A DNA stretch of 64,000 nucleotides. Origin: Phycisphaerae bacterium. GTDB lineage: Bacteria > Planctomycetota > Phycisphaerae > UBA1845 > Fen-1342. The notes under the pieces are model-generated. The model did not search any database. It saw nothing but the letters and a program-made list of their open reading frames with translations, and was not told the DNA's origin. The stretch covers positions 62,001 through 126,000 of the forward strand of contig JANQNU010000036.1 in assembly GCA_028279405.1 (NCBI GenBank), given 5' to 3'. Position numbers and translations under genes: made by a program. This document shows positions 10,933 to 39,244 of this stretch, one piece after another; within the stretch, counting starts at the first letter, position 1; the number at the start of each line of letters is the position of its first letter.

Positions 10933-12261
10933 TCAGTTCATTTTATCCGGCGAATTGCCGTTCGTGGGAGGGTTTTGCGGCCCGGAGCGTCCACGTCGCC
11001 GTCGTCGTCGCCGTTTTGCCGGCCGATCCGGCGTGCCCTCTTGGTCGTTCTTCGGCGGTTTTGCGTCGTTCGAGGCAGGGCTTTCGCGACCGGGTTCCGG
11101 TGCCGATTCGCCAGCTCCCCGTCGGGGCCGGTTCGATCGTCGGCGACTGCGGGAGGGCCGACGGTCGGCGCGCTCGGCGCCGTCCCCACGGCTCTTGTGG
11201 TCGCGTCCGCCGCGCCGGGAGCCGGGGCCGTCCTTGGCGTCGGGCTTTCGCGCGCCGTTCTGGTCTTTCCTGGGCGGGGCCTCCGGTGGTGCCGGGGCAG
11301 GGCGGCGCGGAGCGTTCTCCCCGAGCTCTTCGACCGGAATGGTCATTTCACGGCCGTCGTCGAGGCGGACGAGCACGAGTTGGGTCAGCGTCTGGCGGTC
11401 GACCACGGTCGCTTCGCCAAACTCGGTCGCGATCCGACTGCCGGTCCGTGGCAGTTTCTTCAGCAGGGCTTCATAGCCCTCGTGCTCGTAACGCAGGCAG
11501 CAGCGCAGTCGCCCGCAGCGCCCCGAGACCTTGGTCGGGTCGAGCGTCGACTTCTGCACCTTGGCCATCTTCATGCTGACGGGCCGTAGCTTCTTGAGGA
11601 AGTTCTTGCAGCAACACTCACGCCCGCAGATCTCATAGTCGGCGACGAGTCGTGCCTCGTCGCGGGCGCCGACCTGTCGCATTTCAATCCGGGTGCGATA
11701 GTGGGACGCTAGCTCACGCACCAACTGTCGAAAGTCGACTCGCTCTTCCGAGCGGAAGTAAAAGACGATTCGCTCGCCGCCGAGCAGGTGCTCTACCGTC
11801 ACGATCTTGATGTCGAGCTGCAGTTGGGCGGCCAGCAGCGCGGCGCGATCGATGTCTTCACCGAGGTGCGAATTGAGCCGTGCGTGTTCGTCGACATCCT
11901 GCGTGGACGCCTCGCGCATGATGCGACCGTTGCGGAGTTTGTAAAACTCGGGCCCGCTGGTCTTGACGTAATCCAGGACGCGTTCGCGCGTGACCGAGTG
12001 GTTGCAGCCGTTGCAGAACAGGCTCACCTGCTCGCCGATTTCCATGCCGCGATCCGTCTGGATCACGACCTTTGCGCCGCATTTGAAGGCAGTACCAGGC
12101 CTGTACGAAAACTCGCCGATCCAGTTCATGGCGCCGTAGCGCACGGCGGACGTCGGGTAGATCTTTTCAAGTCCGGCGCCGCACGCCTTGCCGTCGGCTT
12201 TCTTGCATCGTTCGCCCCCGCCGTTGTCCGAATCGGGGCTGAATTGCGGAAGGGATACCAT
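10933..12261 (-). CDS. PSP1/RicT-type protein with a long basic tail
   Basis: The 442-residue product carries the PSP1 C-terminal domain. The diagnostic cysteine clusters are C-G-R-E-C-C-C-K near residue 212 and C-G-R-L-R-C-C-L-R-Y-E near 249. In Bacillus the homologue RicT belongs to an Fe-S-containing complex that affects RNase Y. The last ~150 residues are low-complexity, rich in Arg, Lys, Pro and Asp, ending in a long Arg run and an N-P-P-T-N-G tail, which suggests RNA binding and is not part of the usual domain. An extra Cys pair (C-K-K..C) near residue 19 precedes the domain. First gene of the six-gene operon; the promoter is at 12279-12308. Confidence 0.92.
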   Translation of the reverse strand: MVSLPQFSPDSDNGGGERCKKADGKACGAGLEKIYPTSAVRYGAMNWIGEFSYRPGTAFKCGAKVVIQTDRGMEIGEQVSLFCNGCNHSVTRERVLDYVKTSGPEFYKLRNGRIMREASTQDVDEHARLNSHLGEDIDRAALLAAQLQLDIKIVTVEHLLGGERIVFYFRSEERVDFRQLVRELASHYRTRIEMRQVGARDEARLVADYEICGRECCCKNFLKKLRPVSMKMAKVQKSTLDPTKVSGRCGRLRCCLRYEHEGYEALLKKLPRTGSRIATEFGEATVVDRQTLTQLVLVRLDDGREMTIPVEELGENAPRRPAPAPPEAPPRKDQNGARKPDAKDGPGSRRGGRDHKSRGDGAERADRRPSRSRRRSNRPRRGAGESAPEPGRESPASNDAKPPKNDQEGTPDRPAKRRRRRRRGRSGPQNPPTNGNSPDKMN

Positions 12262-12278
12262 AGTTGCGTCGCGTTTCT

Positions 12279-12308
12279 ATTATCGCTCGCACGCCGATCA
12301 TGCGACAA
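12279..12308 (-). promoter_or_regulatory. Sigma-70-type promoter of the PSP1-led operon
   Basis: On the minus strand TTGTCG (12303-12308) and GATAAT (12279-12284) are separated by 18 bases. The predicted transcript begins only about 11 bases before the ATG at 12261, and no Shine-Dalgarno sequence is visible in that short leader. Confidence 0.6.
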
Positions 12309-12509
12309 TGCGAGACGCTGTTTCCGGGGCCGGGATCGCTTCCAGTGCTCGATCCGGAACCCGACGTATTTTTCGAGCGCTAACAATAGCCGAAGCGGTG
12401 GCCGTTGAATAGAACGAGGCGTCGGGGCTGCCGCTCGCGATCGGTGGCACGGGTAGCTTGCTAACGGTGTTCAGGCGGTGCTGGGAACCGACGATGGCGT
12501 CCGTCGTCG

Positions 12510-15275
12510 TCAGGGACTGGGAGGGATCTCGATCACCTGGTGGAGGCGGCGCGGGCCGCGTGTCTCGCGAATTCCGAGCGCCACCATGTTTCCGATCAGG
12601 CGCGTTGCAGCGGGGAAACGATAGATTTGGGTATAGGTTGCTCCGGGTCCCACGCGAATGAACGCGCCTTCCTGCCGACGTCTTGCCGGCAGCTGGCAGA
12701 AGCTCGAGAAATTGACGGTCTCTTCGGTCCGGTTCTCGAGCATGTGCTCGATAATCAGATTCGCGCCGCGCCAACGCATTCGAACGAAAACGTCAATATC
12801 GCGCAACCCGATTCGGAGCGGGACAATGAGCCGGACCGAGTGCGTCTCGGGTTCATGGATCTCCACACGGATCTCGATCGGCTGCTCGGACGCAAACTCC
12901 TGCGGCGGGATCGTCAGATGCACCGGTACCTCCAGCGTTTCTCCATCCTGGAGCTGCACGTCGATCTGGCCCGGTGTCAGGTTCCAGGTTTTGGGAGGCT
13001 TGAGCCGGACCGTTGCCGTCATTGGCGCTCGAAACGTGTTTTGGAGTCGCAACGTCAGGTCGTGCTCAGTGTCCTGAAGCTCGATCCGATCCGGGGAGAG
13101 CGCGATGCTCTCCTGGAACAGCAAGAGCGGAATGTCCAGGTCGCTGATGATCACTGGCGCCGTCCCGAGCGGAATTCGCGCCCGGCCGTCCTTCAACTCG
13201 AGCGGAAGCGGTGCACCGTTCAGGTCCAATGCCCGTGCGGCGTCGCCCAGGTATAGCGACGTCGGGCTCAAGCGGCGATTAGCGGACCAGCTCCACACGA
13301 CCATGCAGTCCTGTTCGCGCCCTTCGAACAGTACCGCTACGGAGTCCGGGTCCGGGTGCATGACACGCACCGGTCGCTTGCGGCTCAGATGATGAAACAA
13401 CGTGCGCAATACGATGAAGTTCTCGGTCGGGACCCAGTGTTTGGTATCGCCGTCCCGGTGAAGTCGAAACGGTGCGGGTACGTAGACTCGTTCGGCGTCC
13501 AGCGCTTTGGCCAGTACAACCCGCTGGGCCAGGTCTGCGATGCGATCTGCGGGATGAAGAGCCCGATCGTCGTAGGGCAGAATGCGCACCCAGCGACGAC
13601 CGTGTCGAGGCTGGTCAGCGAGAAAGGCAAGCTCCCAGATGGCACCACGGGCGGACGTTGTCGGCTGTATCGGGATGGTCGCGATGACCGCTGCATCTCC
13701 CCGTCGGGTCCGGTGTTCCTCGGGTGCGTCGGCGCCGCTGGGAACCTCCTCGAAGATCTCACCCAGCAGTCTTGCGGCGTTGCCGACCTGTTCCCCGGTT
13801 CGCGGAATCACGACCTCCGGCAGGGTCACGAACCGTTCGAGTTCGGTCCAGAGGCGCTCGATCGATTCCGCGTCCCAGCGGGTCACCGCTCCCAGCGGGT
13901 CGAGTTCGTCGCCGAATTGCCAGGTGGTCAGGATGCCGCTGAAGAACGTGAAGATCGGTCCCATCGGTTCGGCGAGGTCAGCGTTCGACTGGACCATCCG
14001 CAGCAGTGTGTCATCGTCTGCGCGACCGGTTCGATCGCGGGGGAGGATTACGCCGACCGGGTCGACGTGGGCGGTCACCAGGTCGCGAACAAGTCGTCGA
14101 AGGGTGTCGAAGTAGATCTGCTCGTCGCGCGAGTGGATCATGCCAATCATCGGAATCCCCACACGCGCCGAGCCCGCGTGCAGGGCTTCGAGCAGCTGAA
14201 CGGCCCCCGTCGGATCAGCACCCACCCAGCGACCGAGATCGACGCCGAAGTCAGGGAATGCCGGGTCGGTTGTCGTGAAGGGGACCACGACGCCGAACGG
14301 CAGCATGCGTTCGACGATCAGCCGTTCTTGTTCCGGGACCACCAGCTGGGCGCGCGCGACGTACATTCCGGGGGCTAGTTTCGGGACCTGGATGCGCGTC
14401 TGATGCTTTCCGCCACCCTCGACGTCGACGCGTTCGCGATGAACCGTTGCGCCCTGGGCGTTTTCGATCACGACATCCACGCGTTTGGGTTCCTTGCTGG
14501 TGTCCTGGATCACCAACGCCAGGGATTCCGGCTGGCCATCGACGATGAAGCCGCCGGGGTTCGAGAGCGTCAGGCGCAGCACGGGTAGGCGGTAGACCGC
14601 GACGTCGTCGAACCAGGCCCGGCCGCGGACGTCCTCACGGACGATCGGATCGACCTCGTCTGCGGGCGTCACGCGCCAGGAAGCGTCCTGGGCCACCCAG
14701 AGCTGGATTCGCAGGAAGAACGATTCCGGTTGGGTGGCCGTGAACCGAATCTCCAACTCGCGCCAGCCGTTCGGCGGCGGGTCCGTCGATTGGACCGCCG
14801 GTTCGAGCGCGCTGACGTATTCAGACTCGGATACCCGCTCTCCGAATCGATCGGTAATGTAGGTTGCGAGGAAGGCGCGGGCGTGCTCGAGCCCTTCGGT
14901 GCGGACCTGCGCGCGGACGAGGTAGGTTGAGCCGGCAGATACTCGGACGTCGTTGTACACATACTCGTACGCGACGCTTCCGCCGCGAAGGTCGAAACGC
15001 AGGGACGGAGCTCCACTGACGGCCCCCTGGGTGCGGTCGAACTGGGCTGCGGAGTATCGCGGCAGCCCGGGGCCGCTGAGCCGGTCCCAGAACATGGGGG
15101 TTTCGTCGAAGTTACCCAGCGGCCGCTCATTGAAGTCGAACCGTCGGAGAAGCAGGTAGTACGATTCTGCGTCCTCTTTCGCTGATTGGGCGGCGATGCG
15201 CGGGACCGGCGCCGTTGCTATCAAGAGCAGCGACAGCACGAGTGGCCAGGAGCGTGAATCGGATCGCGTACACAT
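12510..15275 (-). CDS. Large secreted glycosidase-like protein
   Basis: The 921-residue product begins with a signal peptide (basic start, core P-L-V-L-S-L-L-L-I-A-T-A, then I-A-A-Q). Residues ~40-240 look like a carbohydrate-binding jelly roll (F-D-F-N-E-R-P, later W-F-D-D-V-A-V-Y). A beta-sandwich follows, then a TIM-barrel-like segment around 340-620 (D-F-G-V-D-L-G-R-W-V, G-M-I-H-S-R-D). The C-terminal part has repeated Ig-like strands. The domain order is the same as in the 962-residue protein at 4.2-7.1 kb, so both probably belong to one secreted family. No catalytic residues can be assigned. No gene lies close upstream on this strand, so it is probably transcribed alone. Confidence 0.75.
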   Translation of the reverse strand: MCTRSDSRSWPLVLSLLLIATAPVPRIAAQSAKEDAESYYLLLRRFDFNERPLGNFDETPMFWDRLSGPGLPRYSAAQFDRTQGAVSGAPSLRFDLRGGSVAYEYVYNDVRVSAGSTYLVRAQVRTEGLEHARAFLATYITDRFGERVSESEYVSALEPAVQSTDPPPNGWRELEIRFTATQPESFFLRIQLWVAQDASWRVTPADEVDPIVREDVRGRAWFDDVAVYRLPVLRLTLSNPGGFIVDGQPESLALVIQDTSKEPKRVDVVIENAQGATVHRERVDVEGGGKHQTRIQVPKLAPGMYVARAQLVVPEQERLIVERMLPFGVVVPFTTTDPAFPDFGVDLGRWVGADPTGAVQLLEALHAGSARVGIPMIGMIHSRDEQIYFDTLRRLVRDLVTAHVDPVGVILPRDRTGRADDDTLLRMVQSNADLAEPMGPIFTFFSGILTTWQFGDELDPLGAVTRWDAESIERLWTELERFVTLPEVVIPRTGEQVGNAARLLGEIFEEVPSGADAPEEHRTRRGDAAVIATIPIQPTTSARGAIWELAFLADQPRHGRRWVRILPYDDRALHPADRIADLAQRVVLAKALDAERVYVPAPFRLHRDGDTKHWVPTENFIVLRTLFHHLSRKRPVRVMHPDPDSVAVLFEGREQDCMVVWSWSANRRLSPTSLYLGDAARALDLNGAPLPLELKDGRARIPLGTAPVIISDLDIPLLLFQESIALSPDRIELQDTEHDLTLRLQNTFRAPMTATVRLKPPKTWNLTPGQIDVQLQDGETLEVPVHLTIPPQEFASEQPIEIRVEIHEPETHSVRLIVPLRIGLRDIDVFVRMRWRGANLIIEHMLENRTEETVNFSSFCQLPARRRQEGAFIRVGPGATYTQIYRFPAATRLIGNMVALGIRETRGPRRLHQVIEIPPSP

Positions 15276-15412
15276 CCCGGTCGTGATATCGGGAAGGTCC
15301 GATTGGGACGTCAGTTGCAGCCCCCTGGATTTTCGCGGGACCTGCTACTGCAACGCCGCCCGCGTCTTTCCGATACCACCATGACGGTGTCACTGCGCCA
15401 CGGAGACCACAC

Positions 15413-16474
15413 ATGTTGCGCGCGATCATGGACTTCATCTTCGGACCCGTGGAGGAGTACCCGGCAGGGAACACGGACGATCAAGGAACGACCACCGCAG
15501 TCGCTCCGCCGAGCGAGGCGACGACGCCGTCGGCCCAGGAGCCGGAGCCGGAGATTCCGGAGGGCTGGTGGACGCCGGCCGAGCCGCCGGTTACGCGACC
15601 GCCATCCTATCGCGGGCGGGTCCAGCCCGTGGACGTCGGCTTATACGATGAGCTGAAGGGCTTCCTCGCGGATCCGAATCTCAAGTTGCCGCAAGTGCCG
15701 CAAGTGACGCAGGAACTTCTGAGCCTGCTCGATCAGGACAACGTGAGCTTCGCGCGCGCTGCGGAAGTTGCCCAACGCGATTCGGTCATTACCGCGGAGA
15801 TCCTGCGGATCGCGAACTCGTCGCAGTTTCGAGGAATCCGCGAGATCCGCCGACTGGACATGGCGTTCGCGCGACTGGGCGTCAAACAGCTACGCTCCGT
15901 ACTGCTCGGCGTCACCATGAAGGCGATCGCGATTCACACCGGTGGCAACAAGAAATCGCTGGGCGAGCAACTCTGGCAGCAGTCCATGGCGTCGGCAGCG
16001 GCTAGCGCCGGTTTCGCGCAACGCTACGACCTGGGCCCCGAAGACGCGTTCATGGCAGGATTGCTGCACGATATCGGCATGCTGGTCATGCTCAAGTTGA
16101 TTCACGATTTTCAGGGCCGCGGACACCAGCGAATCACCCTGAGCATGTTCTATGCGCTGACCGAGGAATGGCACGAACACCTCGGATTGCGGCTCGCGGA
16201 CAGCTGGAACCTGCCGTCGCCTCTTCCCGAGCTGATCGGGCAACACCACACTTTTCCGAAGATCGACGATCCCTTATGGAAACTGCGGTCGATCGTCATG
16301 CTCTCGGACGCAACGTGTGCGCTGCTCCGGTACGCGCGCTACGTCCCGTACGACCTGTTCGCACTGCCCGCCGCGCAGAAGCTCTGCTTCGCGAAGACAC
16401 CCGCAAACTGCAAGTTCCTGGCGGATTTGGAGCGCGACGTGCGAAAACGCGTCGGCGGTTCGACGCTATCGTGA
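15413..16474 (+). CDS. HDOD domain protein
   Basis: The 353-residue product has a Pro/Glu-rich N-terminal region of ~70 residues, then an HDOD domain at about residues 85-290 (L-P-Q-V-P-Q-V-T-Q-E-L-L, A-R-L-G-V-K-Q-L-R, M-A-G-L-L-H-D-I-G-M-L). HDOD domains resemble HD phosphohydrolases but usually lack the metal-binding residues; they act in regulation and signalling. There is no GGDEF, EAL or receiver domain, so this is a stand-alone form. The ATG at 15413 follows a GGAG. The gene ends convergent with lptB and their last nine bases overlap. Confidence 0.92.
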   Translation: MLRAIMDFIFGPVEEYPAGNTDDQGTTTAVAPPSEATTPSAQEPEPEIPEGWWTPAEPPVTRPPSYRGRVQPVDVGLYDELKGFLADPNLKLPQVPQVTQELLSLLDQDNVSFARAAEVAQRDSVITAEILRIANSSQFRGIREIRRLDMAFARLGVKQLRSVLLGVTMKAIAIHTGGNKKSLGEQLWQQSMASAAASAGFAQRYDLGPEDAFMAGLLHDIGMLVMLKLIHDFQGRGHQRITLSMFYALTEEWHEHLGLRLADSWNLPSPLPELIGQHHTFPKIDDPLWKLRSIVMLSDATCALLRYARYVPYDLFALPAAQKLCFAKTPANCKFLADLERDVRKRVGGSTLS

Positions 16475-17248
16475 GTCGACCGGCTCCGGTGGATCCGATA
16501 CGACCGGCGGCTCGGCGGCGCTGAACTCGTCGCCGCGGAACATGCCCCCAAGGTACTTCTCGCGAACCATCGGGTCGTTGATCAGCGTGTGCGGCGTTCC
16601 GCTGCAGATCACCCGCCCATTGTGGATCACGTAGCTGCGGTCCGTTGTCTCCAACGTGGCACGGACGTTGTGGTCAGTGAGCAGCACCGCGATTCCACGG
16701 TCGCGCAAACGCTTGATCTCCGTGCGAATTCCCTCGACCTGAATCGGGTCCACACCGCTGAACGGCTCATCCAACAAGATCAGCTTCGGATTGGTGATCA
16801 ATGCCCGAGCGATCTCCAGGCGACGTTTCTCACCGCCGGAAATGACCCGCGCAGGACTCGTCCGAATGACGTGCAGTCCGAATTGCTCGAGCAACTCCTC
16901 AACTTTCTGCTTTCGCTCTCGTCGGCTGAAACGCATCGTCTCAGCGATCGCCAGCAGATTCTGCTCGACCGTCAGACGCTGAAAAACGCTCGTTTCCTGC
17001 GAAAGATAGCCCATCCCCCATCGCGCCCGCTTGTACATCGGCAGACGCGTCACCTCCCGATCCTGAAACAGAACCCGGCCCCCATCCGGCGTCAAAATAC
17101 CCACCGTCATGCGAAAACTGGTCGTCTTGCCCGCGCCGTTGGCCCCCAGCAAGCCAACGATCTCGCGATCGTCGACCTCGTAGCTGACCTGGTCGACCAC
17201 TCGCCGACCGCCAAACGACTTTACCAGTTGTTGCACCTGCAAGAGCAT
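16466..17248 (-). CDS. lptB: Lipopolysaccharide export ABC transporter ATPase LptB
   Basis: The 260-residue product is a complete ABC ATPase with Walker A G-A-N-G-A-G-K-T at residues 35-42, the signature I-S-G-G-E-K-R-R, and Walker B L-I-L-L-D-E-P-F-S-G-V-D. The sequence is of the LptB type. LptB powers movement of lipopolysaccharide from the inner to the outer membrane with LptF and LptG; those partners are not in this window. The last ~20 residues (A-A-E-P-P-V-V-S-D-P-P-E-P) are an extra acidic tail. Finding lptB fits a diderm envelope. It follows lepB on the same strand after a 311-base gap. Confidence 0.95.
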   Translation of the reverse strand: MLLQVQQLVKSFGGRRVVDQVSYEVDDREIVGLLGANGAGKTTSFRMTVGILTPDGGRVLFQDREVTRLPMYKRARWGMGYLSQETSVFQRLTVEQNLLAIAETMRFSRRERKQKVEELLEQFGLHVIRTSPARVISGGEKRRLEIARALITNPKLILLDEPFSGVDPIQVEGIRTEIKRLRDRGIAVLLTDHNVRATLETTDRSYVIHNGRVICSGTPHTLINDPMVREKYLGGMFRGDEFSAAEPPVVSDPPEPVDSR

Positions 17249-17559
17249 GAACGACTCGTCAAGCGTAAACAGTGCCCGAAATTGTTGAAAACTTGTTCAA
17301 AAGCGTCCCGCAACCAGCGCCAGAATCCTGCGATCTTTCCATTTTCAAGGTCCAATAATATCGCGATCTAGCAGGGCGGAAACGCCGGTTGTTTCTGTAA
17401 ATCGTTTTCAATAAGAGATTTACAGTGTTAGGCACGATGGTCCGGCTTTCGGATCTAAGGTGTTGCTGCGCGTCGGGGATGATGCCCCGATTGCCCCAAC
17501 TGCTTGTCCAGCAAAGTGTTGAAAGTCTCGGTTCGGGTTTGGCATTCTTTGCGCGACCT
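17249..17559. other. Intergenic gap between lepB and lptB
   Basis: The gap has lower GC than its surroundings and no convincing gene. It contains the inverted repeat at 17395-17425 and a small hairpin (TCGGGG at 17473-17478, CCCCGA at 17485-17490) 70 bases past the lepB stop with no T-run. A clear promoter for lptB was not found. Confidence 0.5.
17395..17425. promoter_or_regulatory. Nine-base perfect inverted repeat upstream of lptB
   Basis: CTGTAAATC (17395-17403) and GATTTACAG (17417-17425) are perfect inverted copies with a 13-base spacer. There is no T-run on either side, so it is not an intrinsic terminator. It lies about 150 bases upstream of the lptB start and could be a dimeric operator or an RNA hairpin. 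Confidence 0.5.
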
Positions 17560-19071
17560 TCATCGAATGAAGCGTGTGCGGCCGATGTCCGGCAACGCAC
17601 GTGACGAGAAGCCGGGAACACGTAGTGTAGCTGGAAGATACACAAACGCGGCCCGCCCGACAATCTGCGACTCCACAACCGTGCCCAGTCGATAGTCCCC
17701 GGGGAGGTGTGGCCCGGCCTCGAACCATTCCCGGCTGTCATGGCTGTCGGGGCTGTTGTCGCCCAGGACGAAGAACTCATCGGGACCGAGCGTCATTGGA
17801 TTGGCCCGTCCGGCCCGACGTGTCTGGGGCGCATCGACGTAGAACACGTCGCGTTCGATTCGGAGGTTGCGAAAAGCGTAGGCACCGCCATCGGCGGTCA
17901 TTGCGAGGCTCAACGGCTCGCGGTGATAGGTGTGCCGATACGCGTCAATGTCAAAGGGGTAGCTTTCGTCGTCGGTCGCCAGCAGCTCAACGCCGTTCAG
18001 CGCTACGTACACTCGGTGGTCGACGTGGGCCAGTTCGAGGCGCACCCGCGCAAAATCGCCTTGTACCTGCACCGGACCGAGTTGCGCCACCTCGTTTTCG
18101 TCGTAACGGGAAACGCGGCGCAGGTGCACGTCGCCGGTTGGGCCGAGGACGGCGACGAACCGATTCGATTCGGTCGCGATCTCGAACTGGAGGGTCCCGG
18201 TGCCGCTGCCGCTCTCTCGCTCGATCTCGACGCGAAGCCGGACGTCGTTCACGTACCGGCCCGAGGATCCATTGTTGTAACCATAAACGTCGCGCAGATA
18301 CTCCCCGACGCCGGGCTCGAATCGAATCGACTGTGGACGTTCGTGTGCACCCTGATAACGAATCACACGTGTGGACAAGCCGCTCCAGTCGGATGCGCTC
18401 GGATCGGCGATGTCGACTTGCCAGGGAGCATGCTCCCCGGCGGGCAGACGCGGCACATACCCCTGGTCGTAGACCGGGATCCAGAGTGCGTTTTGCGCAT
18501 ACCGTGGTTTGCGCGCGATCGTTCCGTTGATGAAGATGTCGCCTTCAATGATCTCGACCGATTCACCGGGGAGCGCGACGAGCCGCTTGATGTAGTTTTC
18601 GAGCGGATCGGCAGGGTCGCGAAAGACGATCACGTCCCAGCGCTTCGGCGCAAGGAGCAGGTAGGGCCACTTGTGTACCAGGATACGGTCACCGGCCAGG
18701 CTTTCGGGTGAGAGCCGTCCGAGTGTGAAGCAGTTCGGGCAAATGACGGTTTCGTCACTGGTGTCCGGCTCGTCGACGTTGTATTGCCAGCTGCAGGCTG
18801 TGCATATCTGGTGGCGGTGCCGTCCGAGCAGACCCTCCGCCATCGAGCCCGTCGGGATGATGAAGGGCTCAACGAAGAAGGCGCGAAAGACGAAGGCGAG
18901 AATGAGCGCCGTGAGCACGGCTTGTACGGTTCCCGTCGTGTGAATCAGGTGCTCGATGGCCGAAGAGCTGTTGTCTTGCTCCGGGCCCGGGTCGGGACCG
19001 TGCGACGGCCGGACCTCGATCGGAGGTGGCCCAATTGACGTTTCGTGCTCTGGGCGGAGGTCGCCGGACAC
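17560..19071 (-). CDS. lepB: Signal peptidase I with zinc-ribbon and large extracytoplasmic insert (copy 1)
   Basis: The 503-residue product is about twice the usual LepB length. A single membrane helix (~48-70) leads to the catalytic Ser76 in P-T-G-S-M; the catalytic Lys162 is in Y-I-K-R-L. The closing G-D-N-S-x-D-S-x-D-S-R box is at 437-447. Between Ser and Lys sits an added Cys pair set, C90-x2-C93 and C111-x2-C114, spaced like a zinc ribbon. Between the Lys box and the G-D-N-S box is an insert of roughly 230 residues with alternating strands, resembling a LamG-like beta-sandwich. The enzyme removes signal peptides at the outer face of the membrane. It is 28 bases downstream of the second copy. 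Confidence 0.93.
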   Translation of the reverse strand: MSGDLRPEHETSIGPPPIEVRPSHGPDPGPEQDNSSSAIEHLIHTTGTVQAVLTALILAFVFRAFFVEPFIIPTGSMAEGLLGRHRHQICTACSWQYNVDEPDTSDETVICPNCFTLGRLSPESLAGDRILVHKWPYLLLAPKRWDVIVFRDPADPLENYIKRLVALPGESVEIIEGDIFINGTIARKPRYAQNALWIPVYDQGYVPRLPAGEHAPWQVDIADPSASDWSGLSTRVIRYQGAHERPQSIRFEPGVGEYLRDVYGYNNGSSGRYVNDVRLRVEIERESGSGTGTLQFEIATESNRFVAVLGPTGDVHLRRVSRYDENEVAQLGPVQVQGDFARVRLELAHVDHRVYVALNGVELLATDDESYPFDIDAYRHTYHREPLSLAMTADGGAYAFRNLRIERDVFYVDAPQTRRAGRANPMTLGPDEFFVLGDNSPDSHDSREWFEAGPHLPGDYRLGTVVESQIVGRAAFVYLPATLRVPGFSSRALPDIGRTRFIR

Positions 19072-19099
19072 GCCTGCTCCGATAGCCGTCTGCGTTTGT

Positions 19100-20650
19100 T
19101 CAGTGAATCCAGCGGATGCGGCCGAAGTCCGGCAGAATCCGGGAAAAACGACGCAGCCCGAATTCCGGCCCGTTGTCCGGGAGCAACGGCTGGAAGCCCG
19201 GCCAGTAGACGAAGAAGGCCTGGCCGATCATCTGGCTCCCGGGTACGACGCCTGTCTGATAGCGATCGGCTTCCAGGTCCGCGCGGAGGTGCGCGCCAAG
19301 CTGACGCGGTCCCCAGAACCGGCTGTCCATGCTGTTCGGGCTGTTGTCGCCGCAAACAAAGTATTGGTCTGGACCGAGCGTGATCGGAAAGTCAGGACCG
19401 CCGTTGAAGGGGCCGGCGTGTTGCGGGTGACGATAGGTATAGTACACGTCGCGGTCGATTCGCACGTGCCGTAAGGTGAGCTGCGCGTCGGTGGCGGCAA
19501 TCATCGGGCGCGGCGAAGTCGGCTGCCCCATCCGCTGGCGGGCCGTCTCGGGCGTGACCGTCCACTGTTCGTCGGTGGAATGCCAGATCACGGAGCCGTC
19601 GACCTCGACGAGGACGCGATAGTCGACCACGCCGACCCCGAGTTGTACGGGTGTGTCAACCGAGGTCTGGCCCTCCCACCATTGTTCCGGATCGGCGCCG
19701 CGTTTCTGGTGAATCAACTGCAACCGTCCGTCGGCGTGAAGGCGGAGCGTGAATCGGTTGTCATACTTGGTGGTCGACAGCTCAACGTAACCCGTGCCGG
19801 CCGTGAACGCCGCCAACGCCGAGACACGGGTGTCCGTTACGATTTGGGGAATGATCCGTGGGTCGAGCGGATGGTTGTAGCCGTAGATGTCCTGGATCAG
19901 CGTTTCGCGCTGCGAACCCTCCACGTCCGTGCGGAACCACAGCTCGTCACGGTCGCGGCCCAGGCCGTCGAAGGTGAGACACCGAGCTTTCGGGTCTTGC
20001 CAGCCCGTCCGTTCCGCGCCCGGCTCCCAACGTGGATGAAACCCGGCGCGCCGTGACGGCTTGGCTGGCGGATGATCGTGGTCGTAATACCGAAACCAGA
20101 GCGACTGCTGCGCATGCGGTGCCTTGTGGGTGATCTCGTCGTTGACGAAGATATCGCCGTCGAGAATCTCGATTTTCTCGTTCGGCAGGCCGATCAGCCG
20201 CTTGATGTAGTTCGTTTGTCCATCGTTCGGCACCTTGAACACGACCACGTCCCAACGCTGCGGCCCGAAGAGACCGCCCACTGCGTATGGCCAGCCATGG
20301 ACGACGATTCGGTCGCCGGCCTTGCCGCGCGGAGCGGTCCGCAGAATCTCGTTCGACTCGTAGCCCTGTCGCTTGAGCGTCTCGGGCGTGTCATAGCGCT
20401 GCCGCCAGCGACAATTCGGGCACTGTACGACCTCTCGCTGTCGTTCGAAGGGAAGCCCGGCGGCGTAGTCTACCCCGCAATTCGGACACGAAAAGTCGGC
20501 ATGAGCCCCGCGCAGCGTCTCCGCCATCGAGCCGGTCGGGATAATGAACAACGGGATGAAGAAGCTCTTGAGCACGAGTAGGTAGATCAGGAAGCCGACG
20601 AACGAGGAGATCTGCTCCGCGAGTGGCTCTTTCGCTCTTCGTGTGCTCAT
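19100..20650 (-). CDS. lepB: Signal peptidase I with zinc-ribbon and large extracytoplasmic insert (copy 2)
   Basis: The 516-residue product has the same architecture as the next gene. The membrane helix is at ~18-38, the catalytic Ser41 in P-T-G-S-M, and the catalytic Lys150 in Y-I-K-R-L. The closing G-D-N-S-P-N-S-M-D-S-R is at 434-444. The Cys pairs C55-x2-C58 and C77-x2-C80 again lie between Ser and Lys. The insert before the final box holds a beta-rich domain of ~240 residues. The ATG at 20650 is preferred over upstream Met codons because it follows AGGTGGA and starts at the family boundary. Two full-length copies with distinct sequences suggest division of labour among exported proteins. 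Confidence 0.93.
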   Translation of the reverse strand: MSTRRAKEPLAEQISSFVGFLIYLLVLKSFFIPLFIIPTGSMAETLRGAHADFSCPNCGVDYAAGLPFERQREVVQCPNCRWRQRYDTPETLKRQGYESNEILRTAPRGKAGDRIVVHGWPYAVGGLFGPQRWDVVVFKVPNDGQTNYIKRLIGLPNEKIEILDGDIFVNDEITHKAPHAQQSLWFRYYDHDHPPAKPSRRAGFHPRWEPGAERTGWQDPKARCLTFDGLGRDRDELWFRTDVEGSQRETLIQDIYGYNHPLDPRIIPQIVTDTRVSALAAFTAGTGYVELSTTKYDNRFTLRLHADGRLQLIHQKRGADPEQWWEGQTSVDTPVQLGVGVVDYRVLVEVDGSVIWHSTDEQWTVTPETARQRMGQPTSPRPMIAATDAQLTLRHVRIDRDVYYTYRHPQHAGPFNGGPDFPITLGPDQYFVCGDNSPNSMDSRFWGPRQLGAHLRADLEADRYQTGVVPGSQMIGQAFFVYWPGFQPLLPDNGPEFGLRRFSRILPDFGRIRWIH

Positions 20651-20914
20651 GGCAGATTCCACCTGAAACGACAGGGTGCGTTCACCTCGTACGAACGATC
20701 GGCAAGGTTGGGTCGTAACAATATGTAATCGCTGCCGATCTGGCGGATGATAGTCGCGTGTGCGGCTTGCAGGAACCCCGCGCATCGACGTCGCGCGAGA
20801 TCCCAGGGATCCCCCCAGCATGGGTGAGGCGGTGTCGGGTGCGGGGCCCGGCGGTTGCCTGCGTGTGGGGAGCGCGTCTTCCCATCGGCGCTTGCAGTCG
20901 CTAGAACCTCACGA

Positions 20915-21889
20915 ATGCGTGTCCTCGTCCTGGTCAACCCCTATGCGAACCGCTGGCGAGCCGGTCGTCGGCTGGAAGTCCTGCGATCCGAGTTCGCCGC
21001 GGTCGGTCTGAGCGCCGAGTTCGTTGAGACCCGCGCTCCGAGCGATGCGACGGCGCACGCGGAGCGCGCTGTTCAGGAGTCGTTCGACGGGGTCGTGGCG
21101 GCTGGGGGAGACGGAACCATCAGCGAAGTCGTCAACGGACTGGTCACAGCTTCGATCGGCCTTGGAGACAATGCCATCCGGCCGGCGCTCGGCATCATTC
21201 CCATCGGGACCGGCAACGATTTCGCGGACATGCTGGGTGTGCCGCGCGATATCGCCGCGGCAGTTCAGGCGATCGCAGCCGGGCATACCCGCATTGTCGA
21301 TCTGGGGTGCGTGCGGTTCGAGGCTGATCCGGTGGAGCCATCCGACGCTAGGGCGTCAGCGACGGGCGCTGCTCGGAAAGGACGTGCCTACTACTTCGAC
21401 AACAATTGTGGGGTGGGCATGGAGCCGCTGGTAACGATCGAGAACGTTCGCAGTCGGCTCTCTGGGAACCTGCGGTATATCGTCTCACTGATCCGCGCGT
21501 TGCGCAAGCTCAAGGCCTGGCGAATGCAGATCCAGTGGGATGGTGGTGCTTTCGATGGCCCGGTGCTCATGTTGTCGGTCTGTAACGGCCCGCGGACCGG
21601 CGGGCTCTTTCACATGGCGCCGACCGCACAGTTTGATGACGGTCTGTTCGACTTCGTGCTGGTGCCCGAGGTTTCCAAATGGACCGTGCTGCGACTGCTC
21701 CCGGCGCTCTTCCGTGGCCGGCACGTTCACCATCCCAAGGTCATCACGGGGCGGACCGCGACGCTCGCGGTTCGCAGTGATCCCGGAACGCCGATTCACG
21801 CCGACGGCGAGGTGCTCGGATCGGACGAACGGTCGCTGGCGTTCCACGTGCTCCCGAAGTGGTTGCGGGTTTTCGTACCTGAACCCTGA
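20915..21889 (+). CDS. Diacylglycerol kinase family lipid kinase
   Basis: The 324-residue product has the DAGK catalytic domain: V-N-P-Y-A-N near residue 8, the nucleotide-binding G-G-D-G-T-I-S-E at 64-71, and G-T-G-N-D-F-A at 98-104. Enzymes of this family (DgkB, YegS, BmrU) phosphorylate diacylglycerol or related lipids, usually at the inner membrane face. The C-terminal half shows the expected beta-sandwich pattern ending in H-A-D-G-E-V. A Met upstream in frame would add 20 unmatched residues, so the ATG at 20915 is used. Divergent from lepB copy 2. Confidence 0.92.
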   Translation: MRVLVLVNPYANRWRAGRRLEVLRSEFAAVGLSAEFVETRAPSDATAHAERAVQESFDGVVAAGGDGTISEVVNGLVTASIGLGDNAIRPALGIIPIGTGNDFADMLGVPRDIAAAVQAIAAGHTRIVDLGCVRFEADPVEPSDARASATGAARKGRAYYFDNNCGVGMEPLVTIENVRSRLSGNLRYIVSLIRALRKLKAWRMQIQWDGGAFDGPVLMLSVCNGPRTGGLFHMAPTAQFDDGLFDFVLVPEVSKWTVLRLLPALFRGRHVHHPKVITGRTATLAVRSDPGTPIHADGEVLGSDERSLAFHVLPKWLRVFVPEP

Positions 21890-22034
21890 AGCGCCTGCGA
21901 TGCGCTGCGGGCCGTGCGTGACGGGCCGCCAGCTGTTGGCGGCAACGGGCGCTATTTACCACAGTTGTCGGAAGTCGTATCGTGACGTCGTGTAGCGGAA
22001 TCTTCGACAGAGGATGGATGGAGTGGAAGCGTAG

Positions 22035-23459
22035 ATGAGACGGAAAGCGATCGTTCGGGGCTGGTTGCTCGCGATTCTGCTGACGCCGACGGTGACAGCA
22101 GGTGTGCCGGGAGGGCTCGAATCGCGGCTTGGTGCGGTGCTGTCGCGGCTTCCCGAGGGCGTGACGGCGGCTGTCCTGGTCGAGGACCATGAGCGCAAGA
22201 CGTGGTTCGCGCGGAACGAAACCCGTCCCATGAAACCAGCGAGCGTCATGAAGCTCTTTACGACGGCGGCCGCCCTCGATCACCTTGGAGCGGACTTTCA
22301 CTATGAGACGCGATTTTTCTTCGAGAACGGCGAGTTGTGGGCTGTCGGCGGTGGGGATCCGGCGCTGGGGGACGAGCGGCTTGCGAAGCAACGCGGTGAA
22401 TCGCGCGACGCGCTGTTCGATCGGCTGGCCAACGAGCTGAAAAACCGGTCCGTAACCAGTCTCCAGAAAATCGTCCTCGATGATGCGGTGTTCGACGATC
22501 AGTCGCGGCACGCGGACTGGCCCGCGGATCAGGCCGATCGCTGGTACCAGGCTCCGGTCGGTGGCCTGAACTACAACGACAATTGCCTCGATGCGAAGGC
22601 GGTCGCAAAGAATGGACGCGTCACCTTGCAGCTCTGGCCAACCTTGCCGATGACGTTCGTCGAGAATGGGCTGAAGCCCGCCAAGCGAAACACTGCCGGT
22701 CTCCGGCGCGGATTGGACTCGGATATCTTCGTACTCAAAGGCGGCGTCAAGGACCAGATGAAGCTCGCACCCGCCGCGGCGGGGCGACCCACGGTCTTCT
22801 TCGGCCATGCGCTCAAGGAAGCGCTTGCCCGACGCGGCGTTCCGACAGTCGGTGACGTTGTTCGTCGACAGATAGGTAAGGAGGCGATCGCGCGTGCGAA
22901 GCCCGTGTTCGTCGCACGCACCTCTCTCCGCGAGGTCCTTTGGCGGACGAACACGTTCAGTCAGAATCTGTTCGCCGAGTGTTTGTTGAAGTCGATGGCG
23001 GCGTACGCGCCGCGCGGCCGACGAAGTGAGTCGGCGGGGACGTGGGCCGAGGGTTCCAATCGTGTGCGCGGCGTTCTTGACGACCACGGCGTCTCGATGG
23101 CCGGCGCGGTGCTGCGCGACGGAAGCGGTCTCAGTCATCAGAATCGCGTCTCGGCGCGGCAGGTCGTGGATCTGCTACACGTGATGAGCCAGCATCCGCA
23201 CCGCAACCTCTTTCGCGACAGCCTTTCGACAGCAGGTGTGGAGGGTACGCTGCGGTCCGCGTACAACCGTCCAGGCCTGCGTAACCGGTTGATCGGCAAG
23301 ACCGGGACGATTTCCGGGGTGCGCGCGCTGGCGGGGTATCTCACGCTGTCGGATGACCAGGAGGTCGTCTTCGCGATTCTGCTGCATGGGAACGGCGTGT
23401 CGCGCGATCAGGTGCGGTCCATTGTCGAATCGCTCGCGGGGTCGCCTGTCTCGGAATGA
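22035..23459 (+). CDS. dacB: D-alanyl-D-alanine carboxypeptidase/endopeptidase (PBP4 type)
   Basis: The 474-residue product has a signal peptide (G-W-L-L-A-I-L-L-T-P-T-V-T-A-G). All three penicillin-binding motifs are present: S-V-M-K at 70-73, S-Q-N at 309-311 and K-T-G at 422-424. The ~200-residue stretch between the first two motifs is the insertion typical of class C (PBP4) enzymes. It trims or cuts peptide cross-links of peptidoglycan in the periplasm. A complete dacB is consistent with a peptidoglycan wall in this organism. The ATG at 22035 lies in a run of purines (GAGTGGAAGCGTAG). Confidence 0.95.
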   Translation: MRRKAIVRGWLLAILLTPTVTAGVPGGLESRLGAVLSRLPEGVTAAVLVEDHERKTWFARNETRPMKPASVMKLFTTAAALDHLGADFHYETRFFFENGELWAVGGGDPALGDERLAKQRGESRDALFDRLANELKNRSVTSLQKIVLDDAVFDDQSRHADWPADQADRWYQAPVGGLNYNDNCLDAKAVAKNGRVTLQLWPTLPMTFVENGLKPAKRNTAGLRRGLDSDIFVLKGGVKDQMKLAPAAAGRPTVFFGHALKEALARRGVPTVGDVVRRQIGKEAIARAKPVFVARTSLREVLWRTNTFSQNLFAECLLKSMAAYAPRGRRSESAGTWAEGSNRVRGVLDDHGVSMAGAVLRDGSGLSHQNRVSARQVVDLLHVMSQHPHRNLFRDSLSTAGVEGTLRSAYNRPGLRNRLIGKTGTISGVRALAGYLTLSDDQEVVFAILLHGNGVSRDQVRSIVESLAGSPVSE

Positions 23460-23498
23460 TGGAACCATAGGTCCCGACGCGGCATTCGTGCGAGCCCT

Positions 23499-24038
23499 CT
23501 AGCCCCAGCCGTCTTCGAGGTCGTCAGGGTCCGTCGAGCGTTTTTTGCGGATCTGCTCGCGTTGCCGATTCTGTTCCGATTCGCGACGGACGCACACCGG
23601 GCAGCGACCGGTCTCCGGATCGCTGGCCGACCATTGTGCGCAACTCTTGCAGACGGACGCTCGTCGAACGGTCGCTTGGCCGCACTGGCCGCAGTCGATC
23701 GGCCAGGCTGCAAAATCCATCGGCTTCTTGACCGTCGAATGTTGCAGGCATTCAGAGTTGGTGCACGCGACGTAGAGCGTTGCAACCGCAGTGGGTTCCT
23801 GCCAGACCTTGGGATCGAACTCGGGCGTCAGCAGTCCGACCAGCCAGTACATGCCGGCAAAAAGCAGCAAGCCGGCGACAATGTAAATACCCACGCGTAT
23901 GAGGGTCGGGTCGAAGACGGCGCTGGGATTCTCGCGCACCTGCTGTTTCCAGCTCTTGATGGACTCGGGCGCCTCTTCGAGGGCCGAGCGGACCCGGTGC
24001 GGGATGTCGGTGGGCGAAAAACGCTTGGAGTCGCTCAT
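23499..24038 (-). CDS. Zinc-ribbon membrane protein
   Basis: The 179-residue product has a charged N-terminus, one membrane helix at about 49-70 (V-G-I-Y-I-V-A-G-L-L-L-F-A-G-M-Y-W-L), then a Cys-rich domain. Visible pairs are C-T-N-S-E-C, C-G-Q-C, C-K-S-C and C-P-V-C, which could bind two zinc ions. The tail is highly charged (R-K-K-R-S-T-D-P-D-D-L-E-D-G-W-G). I do not recognise a named family. The ATG at 24038 is chosen because further upstream the frame runs into the tRNA-Thr region. No operon partner is close. Confidence 0.75.
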   Translation of the reverse strand: MSDSKRFSPTDIPHRVRSALEEAPESIKSWKQQVRENPSAVFDPTLIRVGIYIVAGLLLFAGMYWLVGLLTPEFDPKVWQEPTAVATLYVACTNSECLQHSTVKKPMDFAAWPIDCGQCGQATVRRASVCKSCAQWSASDPETGRCPVCVRRESEQNRQREQIRKKRSTDPDDLEDGWG

Positions 24039-24207
24039 GGCAGCTTCCTGCGGGTCACCGGCGGTCGCGATCCACGGCTCCGTTCGGCGGCAAGGCCTGG
24101 GGGCCGGTTGGCCGGTAGATTGCGGAGCCCGATAATCAAGGATCGGCTTGCGTTCCGGGCTCTCTTGAATAGGATAGCGAGCTGGCCGTGGGCGGCAATT
24201 TTTGGTT

Positions 24208-24235
24208 TTGACAAGGTTGAGTGGTTGCATACAAT
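24208..24235 (+). promoter_or_regulatory. Strong sigma-70 promoter of the tRNA-Thr-tuf-secE-nusG cluster
   Basis: A consensus -35 TTGACA (24208-24213) and TACAAT (24230-24235) are 16 bases apart in an AT-rich stretch. Transcription should start near 24242, about 70 bases before tRNA-Thr. It is the best-looking promoter in the window. Confidence 0.85.
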
Positions 24236-24311
24236 GCTCAATCCGGTTTTTCGGAACCGGCCGGAGCGATGTGCGGCAGAGACCGCGACCCGCGACCGTC
24301 GTGTCAGCAAC

Positions 24312-24383
<72 letters not shown>

Positions 24384-24441
24384 TTTCTCAGCGGGCGGCG
24401 GTTCCGCCAGCGTAATTGGTGGTTCTATAGGTTCAGGGAAC

Positions 24442-24475
24442 GGTGGCAGTGGGCTGTCACCCCGGGTCTCCCGGG
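24442..24475 (+). other. Two adjacent hairpins in the tuf leader
   Basis: GGTGGCAG (24442-24449) pairs with CTGTCACC (24454-24461) through one G-U pair. CCCGGG (24461-24466) pairs with CCCGGG (24470-24475). They share one base, so they could be alternative structures. They sit 20-50 bases before the tuf start and may affect processing or translation. Confidence 0.4.
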
Positions 24476-24495
24476 CGTTGAGTGGAGAGTTTTAC

Positions 24496-25728
24496 ATGGC
24501 CAAGGGCGTATTTGAACGGACGAAGCCGCACGTGAACGTGGGGACCATCGGTCACGTCGACCATGGCAAGACGACGCTGACGGCAGCACTGACTGCAGTC
24601 AGTGCGGCGAAAGGGCTTGCGGAGTACAAGCCGTACGACGAGGTTGCGAAGGCCTCGGAGTCGGACGGTCGTCGCGACCCGACGAAGATTTTGACGATTT
24701 CGACGGCGCACGTCGAATACGAAACGGACAAGCGGCACTACGCGCACATCGACTGCCCGGGGCACGCCGACTACGTGAAGAACATGATCACGGGTGCGGC
24801 CCAGATGGACGGTGCGATTCTCGTGGTGAGCGCTGCGGACGGTCCGATGCCGCAGACCCGCGAGCACGTGCTGCTCGCGCGGCAGGTGAACGTGCCGAAG
24901 CTCGTGGTCTTCCTCAACAAGTGCGACTTGGTCGACGACCCGGAGTTGCTCGAGTTGGTCGAGATGGAAGTGCGTGAGCTGTTGAGCAAGTACGATTTCG
25001 ACGGCGACAACGTCACGGTCATCAAGGGCTCGGCGACCGAGTCGCTGGCCGGTGCGGCGGAGAAGAACGACGATCGCATGAAGTCGGTGCTCGAGCTGTT
25101 GGCGGCGTTGGATGCGGATATTCCGGAGCCGGTTCGCGAGCAGGACAAGCCTTTCCTGCTGCCGGTCGAGGACGTATTCAGCATCAAGGGTCGCGGAACG
25201 GTCGGTACGGGTCGTATCGAGCGTGGCGCGATCAAGGTCGGCGACGAGGTCGAGATCATCGGGCTGCACGTCGAGCCGGGCCGCAAGTCGGTCGTCACCG
25301 GCGTCGAGATGTTCAACAAGACGCTCGACTCCGGCATTGCCGGCGACAACGTCGGGCTGTTGTTGCGTGGTGTCGAGAAGAAGGAACTGGAGCGCGGTCA
25401 GGTGCTGGCCAAGCCGGGCAGCATCACGCCGCACAAGAAGTTCCTCGGTGAGGTATACGTGCTGACGAGCGAAGAGGGTGGTCGTAAGACGCCGTTCTTC
25501 AAGGGCTATCGTCCGCAGTTCTACTTCCGTACGACGGACGTGACGGGCAGCATTACGGAACTGCAATCGCGCGAAGGTGGCGAAGCCGAGATGTGCATGC
25601 CCGGCGACAACATCACGATGAAGGTTGAGATCATCAACCCGATCGCGATGGAGGACGGGCTGCGGTTCGCGATTCGCGAAGGTGGTCGCACGGTCGGTTC
25701 GGGCGTGGTGACCAAGATTCTGGAATAG
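24496..25728 (+). CDS. tuf: Elongation factor Tu
   Basis: The 410-residue product is a full EF-Tu, slightly longer than the usual ~395. G1 G-H-V-D-H-G-K-T is at residues 19-26. D-C-P-G-H (G3) and N-K-C-D (G4, instead of the common N-K-x-D with Val or Met) are present, as are the two C-terminal beta-barrel domains. The added length is mainly in the region around [15 protein letters not shown]-Tu carries aminoacyl-tRNA to the ribosome. The ATG at 24496 starts the standard M-A-K-G-V-F-E-R; an upstream in-frame codon adds six unmatched residues. Downstream follow rpmG, tRNA-Trp, secE and nusG. Confidence 0.99.
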
Positions 25729-25844
25729 TCGCTGCTGCGGGTAATCCTGTGGCTGGCGCGGTACGATCTTAGGGGCAGTGGCCGTGACGGGCGTGCACGG
25801 CTGCTGCATTGCTTATCCGCCCGAATTGGACAGAGGTGCTCGCG

Positions 25845-26012
25845 ATGGCCAAATCGCAGAAACGCGAGTGGGTTTGGCTGCAATGCACGGAAACCGGCGA
25901 CCTGAACTATCGCACAACGGTGAACGTGATGGGCGGCGTGCCCAAGCTGCAACTGAAGAAGTACAGCCCGCGGTTGCGCAAGCACACCCTTCACAAGTTG
26001 AAGCGGAAGTAA
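25845..26012 (+). CDS. rpmG: 50S ribosomal protein L33
   Basis: The 55-residue product has the L33 pattern, starting M-A-K-S-Q-K-R-E-W-V-W-L-Q-C-T-E and ending in basic residues L-R-K-H-T-L-H-K-L-K-R-K. Only one of the four zinc-binding cysteines of the C+ form is present, so this is a C- type. The ATG at 25845 is the family start; an in-frame start upstream at 25809 would add residues not found in L33. It stands between tuf and tRNA-Trp, as in many bacteria. Confidence 0.96.
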   Translation: MAKSQKREWVWLQCTETGDLNYRTTVNVMGGVPKLQLKKYSPRLRKHTLHKLKRK

Positions 26013-26017
26013 TCGCT

Positions 26018-26091
26018 AGGGGTGTAGCTCAATTTGGCAGAGCACTGGTTTCCAAAACCAGCGGTTGGGGGTTCGAGTCCCTCCGCCCCTG
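26018..26091 (+). tRNA. tRNA-Trp (anticodon CCA)
   Basis: The 74-base cloverleaf has acceptor arms AGGGGTG and CGCCCCT (one T-G pair), a D arm GCTC..GAGC, anticodon stem CTGGT/ACCAG with loop TTCCAAA, and the T arm GGGGG-TTCGAGT-CCCTC. The anticodon CCA and discriminator G fit tryptophan. It begins five bases after the rpmG stop codon, so it must be processed from the mRNA. The rpmG-trpT-secE order is common in bacteria. Confidence 0.97.
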
Positions 26092-26134
26092 ATGTCGTCC
26101 TGAGACGGGACGATTCGTTACGGCGCATGCGCGA

Positions 26135-26707
26135 ATGACCGATACGAAGACCAACATGACGGCGGCAGATCCTCCGCCCGCCGACAAGAGGCCAGGCATG
26201 GCACACGAAGCAGACGCCGGGGCACCGCGCGCGGTTCAACCGGCTGCGGTCAAGAAGACCCCGGGGCAGAGTCCTTTTCATATTCTCAAGGCCGGGCAGG
26301 GCGCCTATGTGCGCTGGTGTTCGGCAGCGGGTGCGGGCCTGCTGACGCTAGGCGCTGCGGCGCTCATCTACGAGAAGCTCGCGCTGGTCACGCAGAATCA
26401 GGTTGTCTGGTTCATCGTCCCGACGATCTTCATGGCGGTGATGGCGTACCTGGTGTTCTGGCTCGTCGGCCAGAACCAGCGGGTCGTCGACTTCATGATT
26501 GCGACCGAAGGTGAGCTCAAGAAGGTCAACTGGTCCAGCCGGCGCGAGATCATCGGCGCGACCAAGGTTGTGATCTTCACCGTTCTGGCGCTTTCGCTGT
26601 CGCTGTTCGTGGTGGACCTGATCTTCGCCTGGTTCTTCGAGGCGGTCGGTGTGCTGAAGATTGGTATTTTCGATATTCTGTTCGGAATCGGACGGGACAA
26701 AACGTGA
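26135..26707 (+). CDS. secE: Preprotein translocase subunit SecE
   Basis: The 190-residue product is a long SecE. An N-terminal ~50-residue Pro/Ala-rich region is followed by two hydrophobic helices (~65-85 and ~90-112), the conserved amphipathic segment E-G-E-L-K-K-V-N-W-S-S-R-R-E near 125-140, and a final helix at about 145-170. The three-helix form resembles that of E. coli; many bacteria have only the last helix. SecE clamps SecY in the translocon. Its stop overlaps the nusG start by four bases (GTGA). Confidence 0.95.
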   Translation: MTDTKTNMTAADPPPADKRPGMAHEADAGAPRAVQPAAVKKTPGQSPFHILKAGQGAYVRWCSAAGAGLLTLGAAALIYEKLALVTQNQVVWFIVPTIFMAVMAYLVFWLVGQNQRVVDFMIATEGELKKVNWSSRREIIGATKVVIFTVLALSLSLFVVDLIFAWFFEAVGVLKIGIFDILFGIGRDKT

Positions 26708-27459
26708 CGGGCGAGTCAAACGAATCCGTGAACGGGAAGGATCCGATGGATTCCAGCGCCGCGAATCTCGAAGCTCAGCAAGACGAAGTGGACGCGGTCG
26801 ACCCGGGCGCTGCGGTCGAAGAGGAGACCGTTGCGGCCGAACCGTCGGTGGCCGAGAAGCCTGCGGGTGTTGCGGGTGGATCGGTGACCGCCGAGCTGTT
26901 TCGCCCGGGCATGAACTGGTATGTTCTGAAGGTTGCTTCCAACAAGGAAGACCGCGTTCGGGAGGCGCTGGATCGCAAGGTCAAGATAGAAGGGCTCGAG
27001 GAGCGCATCGGTCGGATCCTAGTGCCGACCCAGCGTGAAAAGCGGATCCGCGGGGGCAGCGCCCGCGTCTATCATCGCAAGCTCTATCCGGGTTACGTGT
27101 TCGTCGAGATGGCGACCGAGCCCGACGGTCGGATTCCCGAGAACGTCTGGTTCATCATCAAGGAAACGACCGGAGTCGGCGATTTCATCGGCTCCGGCGG
27201 CAAGCCCTCGCCGATGAATCCTGATGAAGTCGAGAAGATGCTCTCGGCGGCGGTTGGCAAGGAAGAGACGCCGACGCTCAGCGACCTGCCGTTCAACATC
27301 GGCGATCGCGTCAAGGTCAAGGAAGGCGCGTTCGAGAACTTCGAGGGCGTGGTCGACGAGATCAGTGCGCAGAAGGGCACCGTGCGTGTCATCGCCACCA
27401 TCTTTGGCCGACAAACCCCGATCGAGATCGAGTACTGGCAGGTCGAGGCGGTCGAGTAG
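26704..27459 (+). CDS. nusG: Transcription termination/antitermination protein NusG
   Basis: The 251-residue product has the NGN domain from about residue 70 (M-N-W-Y-V-L-K-V-A-S-N-K-E) and the KOW domain near 195-250 (G-D-R-V-K-V-K-E-G-A-F-E-N-F-E-G). NusG binds RNA polymerase and couples it to Rho or the ribosome. The first ~68 residues are an acidic, Ala/Glu/Val-rich extension not found in typical ~180-residue NusG. The start is taken as the GTG at 26704 that overlaps the secE stop; ATG at 26746 is an alternative. The usual rplK does not follow; the next genes are on the other strand. Confidence 0.97.
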   Translation: MTGESNESVNGKDPMDSSAANLEAQQDEVDAVDPGAAVEEETVAAEPSVAEKPAGVAGGSVTAELFRPGMNWYVLKVASNKEDRVREALDRKVKIEGLEERIGRILVPTQREKRIRGGSARVYHRKLYPGYVFVEMATEPDGRIPENVWFIIKETTGVGDFIGSGGKPSPMNPDEVEKMLSAAVGKEETPTLSDLPFNIGDRVKVKEGAFENFEGVVDEISAQKGTVRVIATIFGRQTPIEIEYWQVEAVE

Positions 27460-27486
27460 ACCGACGACCGGGGAGCGTCCGCTCGA

Positions 27487-39232: not shown

Positions 39233-39244
39233 CGGAGTTTGTCG

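Follow-up and report, generated by a model that had tools for sequence, protein, structure and literature searches.

The window analysed here, a stretch of 64,000 nucleotides from a Phycisphaerae bacterium (contig JANQNU010000036.1), encodes two adjacent type I signal peptidases (SPase I), LepB-A and LepB-B, both of which carry a four-cysteine insert between the catalytic serine and lysine residues and a predicted jelly-roll domain in front of the GDN motif of box E. The two proteins are probably a housekeeping SPase I pair which arose from one tandem duplication, and in each of them a probable Cys4 metal ribbon and the jelly roll would fulfil a structural or docking role. The genes and the conserved parts of the enzymes are located as follows:

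19100..20650, minus strand: LepB-A, type I signal peptidase of 516 aa (PF10502, E 4.7e-25; TIGR02227, E 3.9e-25)
20558..20623, minus strand: single transmembrane helix of LepB-A, aa 10-31 (DSSP of the model, sequence)
20528..20530, minus strand: catalytic Ser41 of LepB-A in PTGSM (sequence, alignment)
20201..20203, minus strand: catalytic Lys150 of LepB-A in NYIKR (sequence, alignment)
19343..19351, minus strand: box E GDN of LepB-A, aa 434-436 (alignment)
17560..19071, minus strand: LepB-B, type I signal peptidase of 503 aa (PF10502, E 4.5e-31; TIGR02227, E 1.6e-29)
18844..18846, minus strand: catalytic Ser76 of LepB-B (sequence, alignment)
18586..18588, minus strand: catalytic Lys162 of LepB-B (sequence, alignment)
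17755..17763, minus strand: box E GDN of LepB-B, aa 437-439 (sequence, alignment)

Both proteins exceeded the curated cut-offs of Pfam Peptidase_S26 and of the NCBIfam signal peptidase I model (TIGR02227), with profile scores of the two copies of 108.5 and 88.9 bits (cut-off 22.9) and of 102.8 and 88.6 (cut-off 47). Cleavage of signal peptides is predicted for both. The genes lie next to each other on the minus strand with lepB-A first and are separated by 28 bp; the proteins share 36% identical amino acids. LepB-A starts with the ATG at 20650, from which its residues are numbered, and a longer reading frame with an ATG at 20821 is also open. The start codon of lepB-B is a GTG with the sequence GGAG just upstream. 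Scans of the region for promoters and terminators gave signals no better than chance, and the Rfam search of positions 12000-30000 yielded two tRNAs only.

The Ser-Lys dyad and the GDN motif of box E aligned with those of E. coli LepB and were invariant in 57 sequences from the family and order of the organism. Thus, the first-pass annotation was correct in assigning Ser76/Lys162 and Ser41/Lys150 as retained catalytic residues with C-x2-C pairs between them, as the sequences and alignments of both copies confirm. The RR/K flank N-terminal to the helix of LepB-A suggests that the N terminus is inside and the catalytic domain outside, a topology which is assigned by homology to SPase I.

Confident AlphaFold2 models were obtained, with a pLDDT of 87 and a pTM of 0.87 for LepB-A and with a pLDDT of 83 and a pTM of 0.81 for LepB-B. 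The catalytic core of LepB-A was superimposed by VIA on E. coli SPase I (3s04; Z 15.1, 142 residues, 2.6 A, 37% identity), and Foldseek matched the catalytic fold to 1t7d (E 1.9e-07). E. coli LepB (MEROPS S26) shares with the two proteins the Ser-Lys dyad, boxes B to E, the catalytic beta fold and, between boxes D and E, a domain that takes no part in catalysis. However, only 55 residues lie between its Ser and Lys, without an insert between box B and the GDFILV strand, whereas this spacing amounts to 109 and 86 residues in the copies of the window. Other Planctomycetota (e.g. L146-L172) have an ordinary, short SPase I with the same S26 catalytic core, which is mostly encoded by ORFs of 182-383 residues and in which the large domain preceding GDN is missing after Lys.

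The additional residues between Ser and Lys belong to the four-cysteine insert:

20318..20515, minus strand: insert of LepB-A from box B to GDRIVV, with C55xxC58 and C77xxC80 and beta-strands 50-54, 61-65, 73-76 and 83-86 (alignment, model)
18694..18831, minus strand: insert of LepB-B, with C90xxC93 and C111xxC114 and beta-strands 85-89, 96-100, 108-110 and 117-119 (alignment, model)

In the alignment with E. coli LepB and with planctomycete enzymes without the ribbon, the insert follows box B (IPSGSMMPTL in E. coli) and precedes the GDFILV strand, a site which by homology would lie close to the membrane, where it borders the active-site cleft. C55, C58, C77 and C80 are absolutely conserved in the 57 close relatives although the mean column identity is 31%; they belong to 32 invariant columns, which also comprise the catalytic Ser and Lys and the GDN motif. 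A cysteine occurs exactly 14 residues past the catalytic Ser in all 192 unique insert-bearing LepBs, defined as those with at least two CxxC pairs among 279 unique LepB cores (188 were parsed directly, and L035, L039, L246 and L307 were read by eye due to a mis-set start or an extra upstream Cys). A chance pattern of cysteines was rejected on account of the invariance of the four residues and the fixed position relative to Ser. A further 73 cores showed a Ser-Lys distance of at most 62 residues and no CxxC, and six (L142, L178, L196, L197, L198 and L235) possess an insert of similar length without any Cys. L179 and L261 are apparently partly eroded. Additional CxxC pairs occur in some lineages; in family f53 (L188, L190, L191 and L244), for instance, the Ser-Lys segment holds six of them (12 Cys), some located from box C to Lys (CKxC ... 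CPRC), and the six pairs possibly form three ribbons.

According to DSSP of both models, each CxxC is flanked by two short beta-strands, resulting in a hairpin-knuckle-hairpin arrangement. Both cysteine pairs are predicted at the tips of beta-hairpins in the models; neither these models nor the conservation of the cysteines refute the module proposed in the first-pass annotation. The consensus of the knuckles is C-x-x-C-G(80%)-[YWF] and C-P(91%)-[NS]-C, and the loop between them varies strongly in length and is poorly conserved. We infer that the insert is most likely a zinc ribbon, in which the two knuckles together hold a single structural zinc ion (Cys4); the metal would be Zn or Fe, and disulfides are less likely. 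The matches of the inserts to the named zinc-ribbon families of Pfam reached at most 20.4 bits for LepB-A (cut-offs 26-29) and 16.7 for LepB-B (cut-off 30.3), part of any such match being due to the Cys spacing alone, and those of the homologues also remained below the cut-off. The insert was therefore filed under no named family. It has two C-x-x-C knuckles at the tips of beta-hairpins and the C-P-x-C motif in common with Zn_ribbon_4, Zn_ribbon_8 and RUBY_RBDX, but differs from the named zinc ribbons and from rubredoxin in its long variable loop and in being embedded in the ectodomain of a membrane protease. The lists of structural matches were dominated by the jelly roll, so that structure comparison barely probed the fold of the ribbon. 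The view of the first-pass annotation that a ribbon-like tetracysteine module and an additional beta domain are present is supported; both are conserved in the homologues and are assigned to the outer side of the membrane by homology.

Two other readings of the four cysteines were considered. One is an iron site of the rubredoxin type, or a metal site that responds to the redox state, by which the activity of the enzyme would be regulated. The profile of the insert matched rubredoxins of the PDB (best E 2.4e-05, down to 1e-3) beside other metal-knuckle proteins, and most members share the C-P-x-C form of the second knuckle with rubredoxin. This similarity is, however, probably driven mostly by the spacing of the cysteines; the variable and poorly conserved loop between the knuckles does not resemble the compact core of rubredoxin, and related lineages live without any of the cysteines. 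Such a site is therefore improbable. It is also unlikely, if somewhat less strongly so, that the CxxC pairs are disulfides which stabilize an extracytoplasmic hairpin without a metal. The location of the module on the oxidizing side of the membrane, as deduced by homology, and the loss of the cysteines as a set in some lineages would fit disulfides, but C-P-x-C and C-x-x-C-G at the tips of beta-hairpins are signatures of metal-ribbon knuckles. Moreover, the set of cysteines is close to all-or-none, and no intermediate with two Cys was seen among the 279 unique cores, which is easier to reconcile with one common site than with two separate disulfides, though it is no proof of a metal. Where the insert is retained without any Cys (L142, L178, L196-L198 and L235), the metal of the presumed zinc ribbon must be dispensable.

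The second module is located between box D (Lys145 in E. coli) and box E (GDN), as derived from the alignment with E. coli LepB:

19442..20104, minus strand: concanavalin-A-like jelly roll of LepB-A, aa ~183-403 (VIA Z 16.2 to CBM66 4azz, 153 residues aligned, 3.2 A; Z 15.3 to ERGIC-53 1gv9)
17842..18489, minus strand: concanavalin-A-like jelly roll of LepB-B, aa ~195-410 (VIA Z 15.1 to ERGIC-53 4ygb, 165 residues aligned, 3.0 A; Z 14.3 to CBM66)

In both copies the jelly-roll fold was matched over 150-176 residues with Z values of 14-16, above the background of Z 7-8 which is stated for the tool. The beta-rich domain which had been noticed before the GDN box is hence present in both proteins and is modelled as a concanavalin-A-like jelly roll. 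In E. coli LepB, the loop between boxes D and E harbours the non-catalytic domain II. The slot is therefore a known one that is occupied by a different domain, and the jelly roll replaces domain II rather than being wholly added. The ribbon, unlike the jelly roll, is a real addition to SPase I. The earlier statement that typical LepB possesses neither module consequently holds for the ribbon insert, which is absent in E. coli, but not for the slot of the jelly roll, in which E. coli has domain II.

The distribution of both modules was surveyed with LepB genes from 145 planctomycete genomes and from named contigs. The ribbon occurred in 75 of the genomes and a Cys-less insert in five, while 65 were scored as without; the loci were the best matches to profile A1 or PF10502, and a genome scored as without may hold another copy. 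All 24 genomes of the organism's own family and all 15 from other families of the order possess the ribbon. In the rest of the class it was found in five of nine genomes, and the remaining four have the Cys-less insert. The other classes of the phylum contributed 31 genomes with the ribbon, one with the Cys-less insert and 65 without. In many families of the phylum, the ribbon insert is absent altogether. An insert of the length of the jelly roll was present in 137 of the 145 genomes, judged by length, since the fold was predicted for the two proteins of the window only; the match to profile A1 spans this domain also in families without the ribbon. Of the 80 best-ranking named matches, all belonged to planctomycete records apart from one labelled Actinomycetes (L108), which probably is a mislabelled metagenome bin. 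A tblastn search of plasmids yielded proteobacterial LepB only, over just 27-36% of the query. Judged from these sequences, an SPase I with the two-module architecture is the standard enzyme in almost all of the class and in many further families of the phylum.

In the phylogenetic trees, the 24 A copies of the family formed one clade and the 24 B copies another, each with a support of 100 (IQ-TREE), and A and B together were set apart from all other LepBs (support 97 in IQ-TREE and 94 in FastTree). The simplest reading is therefore that the pair was formed once, by a tandem duplication at the base of the family, and tandem pairs in other families (e.g. f14 and f35) look independent. An assembly artefact was rejected, as 24 of the family's genomes share the tandem, among them one whose contig end is truncated. 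In L181, L186 and L203 (families of G062, G085 and G121), a tandem second LepB shows ISTGSM instead of IPTGSM and AYVKR or PYVKR at the Lys box while the ribbon is retained; this looks like an independent duplication.

Downstream of the pair, a further gene is encoded on the same strand:

16466..17248, minus strand: LptB-like ABC ATPase (PF00005; synteny)

The name LptB was given due to sequence resemblance and not by a dedicated model. The order lepB-(lepB)-lptB was found in most loci of the family and order with enough flanking sequence (L026-L064) and in several other members of the class. This conserved order suggests a link between the signal peptidase and genes for LPS export. The organism's own genome (95.5% complete) yielded no further Peptidase_S26 and no archaeal-type SPase (TIGR02228). 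Since no other SPase I was found and the synteny with lptB is conserved, LepB-A and LepB-B are most likely housekeeping enzymes and not accessories for the large proteins encoded nearby.

This bears on two proposals for the function of the pair. According to the first-pass annotation, the tandem copies might be specialized enzymes for large secreted proteins, in which the added modules gate the substrates. Two diverged paralogues are retained across the family and large ORFs are present in the window, as would be expected for such a specialization. However, no SPase I genes other than this pair were found in the genome, relatives from other families that possess one copy show the identical architecture, which is standard in the class, and the neighbourhood of lptB points to housekeeping; the proposal thus finds no support and is very improbable. 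The other proposal concerns the jelly roll, which might bind carbohydrates as an active lectin and thereby anchor SPase I to glycans of the envelope or choose glycosylated substrates. CBM66, GH16 and L-type lectins such as ERGIC-53 share the jelly-roll fold and were the best structural matches, and the polar residues D254, Y258/N259, D273 and D343 are nearly invariant. On the other hand, the fold is common to many proteins without binding function, the domain is inserted inside a protease, and its sequence identity to these proteins is only ~12%. The predicted fold shared with lectins is no proof of sugar binding, and an active lectin is unlikely.

The preferred reading, which is considered probable, is a housekeeping pair with a structural metal ribbon and a jelly roll in the place of domain II, and such a pair would operate as follows. 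LepB-A and LepB-B would be single-pass membrane proteins whose Ser-Lys dyad cuts signal peptides at the outer face of the membrane. A module of 46-66 residues would emerge directly after the strand bearing the catalytic Ser, and its two CxxC knuckles, holding one zinc, would form a ribbon close to the membrane on the rim of the active-site cleft. The jelly roll would sit in the loop used by domain II in proteobacterial LepB, as a scaffold or as a domain binding a partner or glycans. Both modules would leave the catalytic chemistry unaltered; their likeliest role would be structure and docking, by which the enzyme or the emerging pre-protein is positioned with regard to Sec exit and envelope. 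A single tandem duplication in the family's ancestor would have given rise to two diverged paralogues, which were kept by the genomes of the family. It is doubtful that the outer-face metal ribbon and the lectin-like domain instead form a planctomycete-specific docking or regulatory platform which couples cleavage to the metal or redox state or to glycans of the envelope.

SPase I is essential in most bacteria and is an antibiotic target; arylomycins bind to E. coli LepB (e.g. PDB 3s04). A full-text search of the literature, with most subscription journals outside its scope, revealed no description of a ribbon or jelly-roll insert in SPase I. The architecture is robust and apparently unreported. 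For Candidatus Kuenenia stuttgartiensis, a single SPase I (kuste3749) and signal peptides with an AxA cleavage consensus were described (PMC2881027); the passages on SPase I in this source mention no inserts, a comparison by description and not by protein sequence. The whole phylum appears to run an SPase I with a lectin-like domain in the loop leading to box E; in much of the phylum, a predicted metal ribbon beside the catalytic Ser is added. This offers a testable approach to the organization of protein export in planctomycetes, whose membranes and envelope are unusual. The lineages that keep the module without Cys represent a natural experiment on the need for the metal.

Beside the lepB genes, the window contains several long ORFs. 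The protein encoded at 12510-15275 (minus strand; 921 aa) is probably secreted, as it possesses an N-terminal signal-like stretch, and a FixG_C/NEW3-like Ig domain at residues 737-812 was its only family match. Further ORFs of 940 to 1086 aa are located at 4236-7496 (minus strand), 39239-42061 (plus strand) and 42096-45152 (minus strand).
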